In this document: positions 33,036-58,047 of the stretch, piece after piece
Layout: every line of letters starts with the position of its first letter
Numbering within the stretch: the stretch's first letter is position 1
Source of the DNA: Alkalicaulis satelles
GTDB taxonomy: Bacteria; Pseudomonadota; Alphaproteobacteria; Caulobacterales; Maricaulaceae
Length of the DNA stretch: 64,000 nt
Direction: 5' to 3'
Assembly (NCBI RefSeq): GCF_008630495.1
Contig: NZ_VWOJ01000005.1
Span: 62,001-126,000 of the forward strand
Position numbers and translations under genes: made by a program
Notes under the pieces: generated by a model
The model's input: only the letters and a program-made list of their open reading frames with translations
Database searches by the model: none
What the model was told of the DNA's origin: nothing

Positions 33036-33139
33036 GGCGTTTCATCGCGGAGAATGATCCTGGCCGGACGCCATTGCGTCCGGCCAAGTCATTGATGCGC
33101 TGCAAAAATGCGCTGCATTACCGGATTTTCACACAGAAA

Positions 33140-33157
33140 TGAACGCTGTTCACTTTT
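33140..33157 (+). promoter_or_regulatory. Copy 1 of an 18-bp palindromic motif
   Basis: TGAACGCTGTTCACTTTT; the core TGAAC-GCT-GTTCA is a perfect palindrome. It lies 81 bp before the start of the small secreted protein. The identical 18 bases occur at 54796-54813 before the COQ4-like gene. It looks like a dimeric repressor site (TetR-like size), but the regulator is unknown. Confidence 0.6.
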
Positions 33158-33237: not shown

Positions 33238-33708
33238 ATGACTGCTCTCGTTCGTGTGCTTTTCGCTGGCGCCGCATTGAGCCTCGCCGCCATTCCCGCC
33301 GCTGCGGCGCAGGAATGCCCCGCCGGGCCGTCCTTCGTGAGCGTGTCCACCGCCAACGCCAATGTGCGCGCTTCGGCCAGCCGGATCGAGCGCGGCGACT
33401 GGTCCACCGCCGAGCATTTCGCGAACTCCGCGATCAATTCGGGCACGACCAGCCGCAACAAGGCCGCCGCGGCGGTCAATCTGTGCGCGGCGCTGGCCAA
33501 TCAGGGCAGTGAGTCAGCCGCAGACGCCTGCAATGACGCCGCTGAACGTACGGGCGGCTCGTGGGAAGCTCACACCAATCGTGGCGCGGCCCTGTGGCTG
33601 GCGGGCGATCAGGCGGGTGCGCGCGCCGACTTCACGCGCGCAGGCGAACTGGCCAGTGGAGAAGCTGCGGTCCAGACCAATCTGACCCTGGCGTCCTGCG
33701 CCGGCTAA
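33238..33708 (+). CDS. Small secreted protein with TPR-like helices
   Basis: 156 residues from ATG 33238 (TTAGGAGA upstream). Signal peptide of about 24 residues ending AAAAQ, then a Cys (ECPAG) and repeating Ala-rich helices (WSTAEHFANSAINSG, NKAAAAVNLCAALANQG, AHTNRGAALWLAGDQAGARADF) that resemble two or three TPRs. Four Cys in the mature part (CP, LCAA, ACND, SCAG) suggest disulfides. The 18-bp motif at 33140 lies in its promoter region. Function unknown. Confidence 0.7.
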   Translation: MTALVRVLFAGAALSLAAIPAAAAQECPAGPSFVSVSTANANVRASASRIERGDWSTAEHFANSAINSGTTSRNKAAAAVNLCAALANQGSESAADACNDAAERTGGSWEAHTNRGAALWLAGDQAGARADFTRAGELASGEAAVQTNLTLASCAG

Positions 33709-54795: not shown

Positions 54796-54813
54796 TGAAC
54801 GCTGTTCACTTTT
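54796..54813 (+). promoter_or_regulatory. Copy 2 of an 18-bp palindromic motif
   Basis: TGAACGCTGTTCACTTTT, identical over 18 bases to 33140-33157; here the palindrome is one base longer on each side (GTGAAC-GCT-GTTCAC, 54795-54809). It ends 54 bp before the COQ4-like start codon. Confidence 0.6.
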
Positions 54814-54867: not shown

Positions 54868-55635
54868 ATGTCCGCCGTTATCGATGACATTCCCTTTCCC
54901 AGTCAGCCTGTGCGCCCCCTGGAGGCGCTGGCCGCGTTCGGCGATCTGATCCGCAACAAGGAAGACACGCGCCATGTGTTTCGCTTCTTCGCCGCCACGC
55001 AGGGGCGAACGGGCGAGGCGGGTTTCCGGCGCTTCTGCGCCAGCGAGCTGGGCCAGCGCGTCATCGCCGACCGTCAGTGGCTGGCGGACCAGCTGATGGA
55101 CCGGGCGCGCCTGGAGAGCTACGGGCCGGGCACGTTCGCCTCGGCCTATCTGCATTATCTCGACAGTGAGGGCCTGTTCCCGCTGGGCGTCTATGAGGCG
55201 GCGGTGGCCAACAACCCTGAGCATTACGCGCTGCTTGACCGCGATTTCCCTCAATTCAGCGCCTACACCTGGGCCATGAGCCTGACTCACGATCTCTATC
55301 ACGTGCTCACGGGCTATGGCCGCGACGCGCTGGGCGAGGCTCTGTTGCTGGTATTCACCGGCGTGCAGTCCGGCTCGCGCGGCTCGCGCCTTCTGGGCGC
55401 CATGGGCGGTCTGAAAATCCGCTCGGAAATCCCGCGCTGGCCGGTGGGGCGCATGATGCGTAACGCGGCGTCCATGGCGCGCACCGCCGCGCCCATGCCG
55501 GTCACGGATCTGACGGCCTTGTTCCCGCTCAAACTGGACGAGGCGCGCCAGGCGCTGCGTCTGAGGCCCGACCCGCTCTACCGCAACACGCTCGACACCT
55601 GGCAGGGCCCGGCGCCTCTGACGGTCAAGGCGTAG
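54868..55635 (+). CDS. COQ4-family (ubiquinone biosynthesis-like) protein
   Basis: 255 residues from ATG 54868. The COQ4 signature HDxxH-x11-E is exact: THDLYHVLTGYGRDALGE near residues 142-158. Eukaryotic COQ4 is needed for coenzyme Q synthesis, recently tied to modification of the quinone ring carbon 1; bacterial versions are less known. N-terminal part PFPSQPVRPLEALAAFGDLIRNKEDT resembles the family's substrate-binding helices. No other coq/ubi gene is near. Confidence 0.85.
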   Translation: MSAVIDDIPFPSQPVRPLEALAAFGDLIRNKEDTRHVFRFFAATQGRTGEAGFRRFCASELGQRVIADRQWLADQLMDRARLESYGPGTFASAYLHYLDSEGLFPLGVYEAAVANNPEHYALLDRDFPQFSAYTWAMSLTHDLYHVLTGYGRDALGEALLLVFTGVQSGSRGSRLLGAMGGLKIRSEIPRWPVGRMMRNAASMARTAAPMPVTDLTALFPLKLDEARQALRLRPDPLYRNTLDTWQGPAPLTVKA

Positions 55636-57024: not shown

Positions 57025-58047
57025 TCAGGCCTCCGTGACGGTCTTGAGCGCGCGGATGAAGCGGTCGCGGGTGGGGAAATAGGCCCATTCATGGGCGTGG
57101 GGATAGGGCGTATCCCACCCCGTAAGGCGGAAGACCGGCGCCTCGAGCGCGTAGAAGCACTCTTCCTGGATCTGGGCGGCGAGCTCGGCGGCGAAGCCTG
57201 ATGTGCGCGGCGCTTCCTGGGCGACCACCACCCGGCCGGTCTTATTCACCGAGGCGGCGATGGTCTCGATATCGTAAGGGACGAGCGTCTTGAGATCGAT
57301 AATCTCGGCGTCGATGCCGGCATGCTCGGCGGCGGCCTCGGCCACATGCACCAGCGTGCCATAGGCGATCACCGTGCAGGCCTCGCCCGGGCGCACGATC
57401 TCGGCCTTGCCCAGCTCTACGGTGTAGCGCTCCTCGGGTACTTCGCCCTTGGGATGGCGCGCCCAGGAGGACAGCGGCTTGTCGGGCACGCCGTCAAACG
57501 GGCCGTTATAGATGCGCTTGGGCTCAAAAAAGATCACCGGATCGCCCGACTCGATGGACGCGATCAGCAGGCCCTTGGCGTCATACGGGTTGGACGGGAC
57601 CACCACCTGCAGGCCGGGCACATGGGTGAAGAAGGCTTCCGGGCTCATGGAATGGGTCTGGCCGCCCCGGATGCCCCCGCCCCACGGGCTGCGCACCACG
57701 CAGCCGGAGGTGAACTGGCCCGCCGAGCGATAGCGGATGCGGCTCATCTCCGAGACGATCTGGTCAATGGCCGGGAAGATATAGTCGGCGAACTGGATCT
57801 CCGCGATAGGCTTGAGCCCGCGCGCGGCCATGCCCACCGCCATGGCGGCGATGGCGGCGATGGCGGCCTCGTTGATGGGCGCGTCAAACACCCGGTCCAG
57901 GCCGTATTTCGCCTGCAGGCCGTCAGTGGCCTTGAACACGCCGCCGAAATAGCCCGCGTCCTCGCCGAAGATGACCACGTCCGGATCAGCGTCCAGCAGC
58001 ACGTCCATGGCCGAGTTGAGCGCCTGAATGATGTTCATCGCGGGCAT
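57025..58047 (-). CDS. bkdA2: Branched-chain 2-oxoacid dehydrogenase E1 beta subunit
   Basis: 340 residues. Transketolase-like beta subunit with GEDAGYFGGVFKATDGL (ThDP-binding Glu-Asp), ISVAAMAVGMAARGLKP-like helix, SPWGGGIRGGQTHSMSPEAFF, and FEPKRIYNGPF. It forms the heterotetramer with E1 alpha encoded upstream. Three bp between its stop and bkdB start codon, and three bp to E1 alpha. Confidence 0.9.
   Translation of the reverse strand: MPAMNIIQALNSAMDVLLDADPDVVIFGEDAGYFGGVFKATDGLQAKYGLDRVFDAPINEAAIAAIAAMAVGMAARGLKPIAEIQFADYIFPAIDQIVSEMSRIRYRSAGQFTSGCVVRSPWGGGIRGGQTHSMSPEAFFTHVPGLQVVVPSNPYDAKGLLIASIESGDPVIFFEPKRIYNGPFDGVPDKPLSSWARHPKGEVPEERYTVELGKAEIVRPGEACTVIAYGTLVHVAEAAAEHAGIDAEIIDLKTLVPYDIETIAASVNKTGRVVVAQEAPRTSGFAAELAAQIQEECFYALEAPVFRLTGWDTPYPHAHEWAYFPTRDRFIRALKTVTEA

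Follow-up and report, generated by a model that had tools for sequence, protein, structure and literature searches.

The 18-bp sequence repeated in the 64-kb stretch of Alkalicaulis satelles DNA analysed here (the window) is very probably, on the evidence of the genomes compared, a real control switch that stands before at least eight scattered genes or operons. The sites would belong to one regulon with an operator of the type TGAACR-N-YGTTCA, and we hold with good confidence that its regulator is a TetR-family protein encoded outside the window, beside an RND pump. We are less sure of the direction of control, which would be repression, and of the ligand than of this core.

A repeated dyad before two genes of the window

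The window corresponds to contig C5:62001-126000 of the A. satelles genome (G000, 2.89 Mb). The 18-mer TGAACGCTGTTCACTTTT is present in it as exact copies at 33140-33157 and 54796-54813, as the preliminary description had reported and as was confirmed letter for letter, and a search allowing up to three mismatches returns just these two matches. Two copies were obtained in none of 100 dinucleotide shuffles of the window, which is far above chance and bears out the earlier opinion that a chance repeat is very unlikely. The same description considered the whole 18-mer palindromic; this holds for the strict dyad, TGAAC-N3-GTTCA, of 13 bp, and does not hold for the trailing CTTTT, a one-sided extension outside the dyad. 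Both sites had also been placed within 100 bp of a start codon, and the measured distance from site centre to ATG agrees: it is 92 bp at the small secreted protein gene and 66 bp at the COQ4-like gene. The features of the window are as follows.

33140..33152, + strand: putative operator copy 1, TGAACGCTGTTCA (18-mer to 33157), 5' of the small secreted protein gene
33238..33708, + strand: putative target, gene of a 156-aa secreted protein with a signal-peptide-like start, judged by eye
54796..54808, + strand: putative operator copy 2, TGAACGCTGTTCA within GTGAACGCTGTTCAC, 5' of the COQ4-like gene
54868..55635, + strand: putative target, COQ4-like protein gene (PF05019, 39.6 bits, cut-off 22.9)
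58025..58037, + strand: one-mismatch match TGAATGATGTTCA within the start of the minus-strand ORF 57025-58047; probably chance, and excluded from the operator count

The small secreted protein matches no family above cut-off, its TPR matches being weak and sub-threshold. An alternative ORF start at 33139 would place the motif inside this gene, and the start at 33238 is preferred because of the signal-peptide-like beginning and the fit to the two orthologues found, which are 88% identical over 154 of 156 residues. Among the four same-genus genomes with every site placed, G011 and G012 have a perfect site before the orthologue.

The COQ4-like protein is 84% identical to its single named match, a protein of an Oceanicaulis MAG, and a PDB sequence search gave no match at E 0.001. 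Within the genus, a site lies upstream of 13 of 14 orthologues, that of A. satelles included (10 perfect, 3 with one mismatch), and the orthologue of one sister genus has an upstream site too (at most one mismatch). The same-genus exception, G004 (1.7 Mb, 91% complete), also gave no match to the TetR protein described below and none to TolC, so that this genome may be incomplete or reduced. For more distant COQ4 homologues, none of the 15 with loci has an upstream site, and two more had no locus.

Sites across the genome and the predicted regulon

The genome-wide search that had been proposed for TGAAC-N3-GTTCA yields eight perfect sites, against none for the reversed-pattern control. All eight are in promoter position, at 17-110 bp from site centre to the ATG of a start codon (start codons chosen by eye), which goes against a motif scattered through coding DNA without promoter preference. 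Besides the two sites of the window, these are:

Gene on contig C1, TolC channel (TIGR01844, over cut-off): 80 bp to ATG
155-aa protein without Pfam family, followed by a fatty acid hydroxylase (PF04116): 17 bp to ATG
AurF-like diiron enzyme (PF11583): 110 bp to ATG
FMO-like flavin monooxygenase (PF00743): 40 bp to ATG
Beta-helix protein TIGR03805: 71 bp to ATG
SDR, short-chain dehydrogenase (PF13561): 74 bp to ATG

The first 220 residues of the FMO-like protein have Baeyer-Villiger monooxygenases as their best PDB relatives, while the AurF-like protein gave no match in a PDB sequence search at E 0.001.

If one mismatch is allowed in TGAACRNYGTTCA, 28 matches are found in the genome and four with the control. 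The 20 one-mismatch matches comprise one at the TetR-pump locus, four at gene starts, the one inside an ORF of the window (58025) and one at C2:686038; the other 13 were unplaced. The weaker sites at gene starts, including one with two mismatches, are:

C2:435185, one mismatch: gene start of SppA
C4:158055, one mismatch: between an SBF transporter and an M28 peptidase
C1:440362, one mismatch: gene start of an arylesterase-like protein
C2:459182, one mismatch: gene start of a beta-lactamase-fold protein
C1:882381, two mismatches: 5' of a nitronate-monooxygenase-like gene

The predicted regulon thus extends beyond the two genes of the window, with eight perfect sites, an imperfect tandem site at the pump and five weaker gene-start sites, and the small regulon of a dimeric regulator anticipated in the preliminary description is supported by both the genome scan and the comparison of genomes.

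Some local arrangements were also observed. The AurF-like gene (C2:224070-225305; L010:7071-8306), which has its own operator, lies directly behind a fatty acid hydroxylase gene. Genes of the beta-lactamase-fold, GMC oxidoreductase, aldehyde dehydrogenase and beta-helix kinds stand in a row at C2:453445-459143 (L012:3446-9144), with a one-mismatch operator in front of the whole row and a perfect operator in front of its last gene. The site of the beta-lactamase-fold gene is perfect in the relative G022 (L137).

A TetR protein beside an RND pump as candidate regulator

The preliminary description suggested looking for a TetR- or LuxR-type regulator, and the evidence points to a TetR gene at C4:161515-162210, outside the window, directly before a pump operon and co-directional with it. 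Behind this gene follow a membrane-fusion protein (RND_mfp, TIGR01730) and then an RND permease (ACR_tran, PF00873). The next gene is CysE-like, and the pump operon is therefore without an outer-membrane channel gene; the TolC gene with the perfect site is encoded elsewhere, on C1. The genome has 13 TetR_N genes, and when a matrix built from the eight perfect sites (own scores 26-32) was run over the 13 loci, the top score, 18.0, corresponded to a site just behind the pump TetR, the next best, 12.5 and 12.1, being more than 1 kb from their TetR domains. The gap between the TetR and fusion-protein genes (C4:162237) contains the imperfect site TTAACGCCGTTCA, a worse second one 18 bp on and, after both operators, a TATA-like sequence.

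The pump TetR matches TetR_N (PF00440, 57 bits, cut-off 24) and TetR_C_33 (PF13305, 29.2 bits, cut-off 26.8). Its AlphaFold model, for which 21 orthologues were used, shows an ordinary all-helical TetR fold (pLDDT 86.6, pTM 0.82). The four top fold-match chains, FadR and YvdT included, have a Z of 17.1 and rmsd values of 2.9-4.8 over 185-193 aligned residues; FadR, EthR, KstR2, PfmR and many other TetRs tie, so the fold matches do not give the ligand class, and the absence of a family from these lists carries no information. Among the named NCBIfam TetR equivalogs, 14 families matched with at most 36.4 bits, against cut-offs of 118 or more. The helix-turn-helix stretch hardly varies among the 21 aligned orthologues, down to 37% overall identity, as would be expected if the operator is kept.

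In the intergenic gap about 240 bp before the likely start of another TetR gene (domain at C2:686338-686475) lies a match with one mismatch, AGAACGGTGTTCA, at C2:686038 (L039:1201); the flanks fit poorly and the matrix score is 3.3. With this match, the protein is a possible rival or overlapping regulator. A second palindrome, GTGATC-N3-GATCAC, occurs at C1:347225 (L029:2884) and C1:323070, 24 kb apart, the first copy being about 1.2 kb from another TetR domain, of which it is possibly the operator.

Co-occurrence of the sites with the pump-linked TetR

A comparison of 41 genomes (A. satelles and 40 relatives) found an orthologue of the pump TetR, defined as a match above 130 bits, in 23. A site is present beside the TetR gene in all 23 loci (perfect in 12, with one mismatch in 10 and with two in L062), and a membrane-fusion gene, 40-100% identical to that of A. 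satelles, follows the TetR gene in each; part of the RND gene is also visible in 22 loci, and the remaining one is cut by its contig end. At seven loci of weaker TetR homologues, neither a site with at most one mismatch nor a comparable pump arrangement was found. In the family of A. satelles (19 loci), the site lies between the TetR and fusion-protein genes, whereas in four genomes of another family (G025, G029, G033, G037) a perfect site stands in front of the TetR gene, in its own promoter. The earlier expectation of a regulator gene preceded by the motif thus holds for these four genomes; in the family of A. satelles, the site comes after the TetR gene and before the pump.

The number of perfect sites follows the presence of the TetR, with means of 8.4 (control 0.30) in the 23 TetR-bearing genomes and 2.0 (control 1.72) in the 18 without it (p 2.4e-7 by the Mann-Whitney test, and 3e-4 outside the genus). 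Because the genomes are related, these p values, like the one for TolC that follows, overstate independence. Sites before TolC behave alike: they occur at 16 of 21 loci in TetR-bearing genomes (15 perfect, one with one mismatch), five having none, and at 0 of 9 loci in genomes without the TetR (Fisher p 1.4e-4). TolC was matched in 39 genomes, and the test covered the 30 that had a locus, the nine left out including the TetR-bearing G025 and G029; in a distant genome the best TolC match may be something other than the orthologue. Since G033 and G037, which belong to another family, also have the TetR and TolC sites, pump and channel may have been the first members of the regulon. In a class-wide profile search for the TetR, made with a strict E limit on sampled genomes and with at most 10 candidates scored per genome, 2 of 289 genomes, that of A. 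satelles and one of the same order, gave E 1e-45 or better.

These data bear on a different assignment, in which the regulon operator is real and the scattered sites are bound by another dimeric regulator, for example the TetR at C2:686338 or a member of another family. The genome has 13 TetR_N genes to choose from, the pump site of A. satelles itself is imperfect, and the C2:686338 TetR has its intergenic one-mismatch match. However, the matrix score is highest at the pump TetR (18.0, against 12.5 and 12.1 at more than 1 kb and 3.3 for C2:686338), this protein tracks both the site number in 41 genomes and the TolC sites at 30 loci, in a test that covered the pump TetR alone, and a perfect site lies in its own promoter in the four genomes of another family. 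We regard this reading, in which the pump TetR would simply share a similar operator, as improbable.

Targets in relatives

Four same-genus genomes (G010, G011, G012 and G014) have 39 perfect sites, of which a hand count puts 26 before orthologues of A. satelles targets: 5 of 9, 9 of 10, 8 of 13 and 4 of 7, respectively. Two of the 26 correspond to the SBF/M28 site, which has one mismatch in A. satelles, and one COQ4 site in the 39 was taken from the separate COQ4 comparison. The remaining 13 stand before weaker SDR relatives (two) or before nothing in the target set (11).

For other genera (G016, G019, G020, G022, G023, G025 and G037), 36 of 43 sites were placed; the other seven are three TetR sites seen beside TetR genes and four sites of G019. 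Of those placed, 13 precede TolC, FMO, beta-helix, AurF, the hydroxylase operon, the beta-lactamase-fold gene, TetR or the pump, and 23 fall outside close target orthologues, one before a weak SDR relative and 22 before nothing in the set. The core is clear, but either the regulon varies from genus to genus or some of the perfect matches in these other genera are noise. At L112, L121 and L167, SDR relatives 28-33% identical to the A. satelles SDR have an operator at 46-69 bp; given this similar distance in three weak relatives, SDR paralogues may have joined separately.

Between orthologous sites, the arms of the dyad are 0.93-1.0 identical against about 0.3 in most flanks, although choosing loci with a match favours the arms in this comparison. 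At the pump, the downstream flank is 0.56 identical, and the second operator lies there. If the 18-mer were a functionless chance match or dispersed repeat, this could account for the 13 of 39 same-genus matches away from the target set, but the control gave no match, all eight perfect sites of A. satelles are in promoter position, and orthologous positions are kept while the flanks are about 30% identical. The control counts and the orthologous positions rule this reading out, and its probability is negligible.

Operator sequence and promoter context

The predicted operator consensus is TGAACR-N-YGTTCA (TGAACRNYGTTCA), extended to about AAGTGAACRNYGTTCACTT. The R-N-Y spacer is found in 71 of 90 sites in 12 TetR-bearing genomes, compared with 2 of 15 sites in six genomes without the TetR, the rule being derived from some of the same sites on which it was counted.

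The operator overlaps the best sigma-70-like promoter in 35 of 76 cases, with 36.7 in shuffles, and hence this test carries no signal. Two features picked afterwards are enriched: a TATA-like box 0-30 bp downstream of the operator (38 of 76, against 9.2) and a TTG 10-16 bp upstream of it (21 of 76, against 5.9). The upstream TTG is seen for the hydroxylase operon (5/6), the monooxygenase gene (5/6) and the COQ4 group (6/14), and the TATA-like box just downstream for the pump (15/16) and TolC (13/15).

A TetR dimer on a promoter dyad suggests, from knowledge of the family, repression with release by a ligand. With the promoter-overlap test neutral, repression rests here on this family knowledge and on promoter features picked afterwards. 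Some TetR proteins act as activators or dual regulators, and the present TetR could do so at some targets; the operator-to-start distance, which varies from 17 to 110 bp, and the neutral result of the general promoter-overlap test would agree with this. Nonetheless, the upstream TTG, placed as if the operator filled the promoter spacer, and the TATA-like box just downstream at the pump and TolC both fit blocking, with the reservation that these features were picked afterwards. Activation or dual control is thus rather unlikely, and repression is the preferred reading.

Comparison with known systems

TetR regulons are a known kind, and the present one would be a new example. Caulobacter is a fairly near relative of the organism. 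TipR of Caulobacter crescentus is a TetR repressor of acrAB-nodT with four ChIP-seq sites, divergent from its pump and with the consensus WTGaGWMtGAWC (PMC10754441). It resembles the present TetR in being a local RND pump regulator of the TetR family with extra chromosomal targets elsewhere, but the present TetR is co-directional with its pump, its predicted operator is TGAACR-N-YGTTCA, and its putative targets outnumber those of TipR and mostly concern lipids or the envelope. The difference in operator (TGAACRNYGTTCA against the TipR consensus) and in gene orientation rules out the label TipR.

Two further regulators have related dyads. The predicted operator of the actinobacterial BioQ is the same dyad, TGAAC-N3-GTTCA, and its sites precede biotin genes (PMC3398298); the label BioQ is ruled out, as no biotin gene is among the targets scanned. 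RolR of Corynebacterium glutamicum, of the TetR family, likewise has half-sites TGAAC and GTTCA in its REP1, but with a spacer of 4 and a 29-bp paired operator, unlike the N3 found here (PMC9210681). The structure 3aqt, titled RolR, is among the fold matches of the pump TetR, and its title gives resorcinol as the ligand. For the 13-bp motif SAAGRNMTGAACG of Pseudomonas aeruginosa PA3973, just the TGAAC piece is shared with the present operator, and this candidate was discarded (PMC9736018).

With regard to regulators of the fatty-acid-responsive kind (FadR/PsrA), FadR structures are among the top fold matches, tied with other TetRs. DesT, FabR and PsrA presumably have similar operators, and no operator of this type was found among the matches listed from the open-licence PMC literature. 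As for local RND-pump regulators (AcrR/TtgR/MtrR), adjacency to a pump gene, that of the fusion protein, was found in 23 of 23 loci.

MtrR of Neisseria gonorrhoeae and CmeR of Campylobacter jejuni are not known to share the present target set. Both are TetR repressors of an RND pump, are called global regulators and are released by bile salts or steroids (PMC6755732, PMC11200565, PMC10850145). The likeness to the present protein is that of a TetR tied to an RND pump. Open-licence PMC literature, largely by title and start of abstract, yielded no paper on the present regulon, and none was found there on RND efflux in Oceanicaulis.

Proposed mechanism and biological meaning

Based on these data, a dimer of the TetR would occupy the dyad (about AAGTGAACRNYGTTCACTT) at or close to the target promoters and so block transcription. 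The sites, their placing in promoters, their conservation, their co-occurrence with this TetR and the proximity of TetR and pump genes come directly from the sequences, and TetR binding, repression as opposed to activation, the ligand and the purpose are inferred. Its targets would be the adjacent pump operon (membrane-fusion protein and RND permease) and the TolC channel encoded elsewhere and, further, the hydroxylase operon, the AurF-like enzyme, the flavin monooxygenase, the SDR, the beta-helix protein, the COQ4-like protein and the small secreted protein. The TetR would leave the operator when its C-terminal domain takes up a hydrophobic ligand, which may be a toxic lipophile or a compound derived from a fatty acid; we propose that export and lipid modification would be switched on together by this release. 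The pump and TolC suggest that the ligand is a hydrophobic toxic compound or a lipid, and the oxygenases suggest its modification.

More tentatively, the regulon could serve, as a programme specific to this lineage, to modify and export some hydrophobic compound or signal, and the COQ4-like and small secreted proteins would then act outside ubiquinone synthesis. It would then be an undescribed regulon in which, equally tentatively, a pump-linked TetR unites a channel-less RND pump, TolC and dispersed lipid oxygenases and related enzymes.

An 18-bp repeat has thus led to a predicted regulon that can be tested, with a refined operator, a list of targets and a candidate for the regulator. Moreover, the AurF-like, COQ4-like and TIGR03805 beta-helix proteins and the small secreted protein, all of poorly understood families, would be tied to efflux, which would offer a concrete handle on their function.
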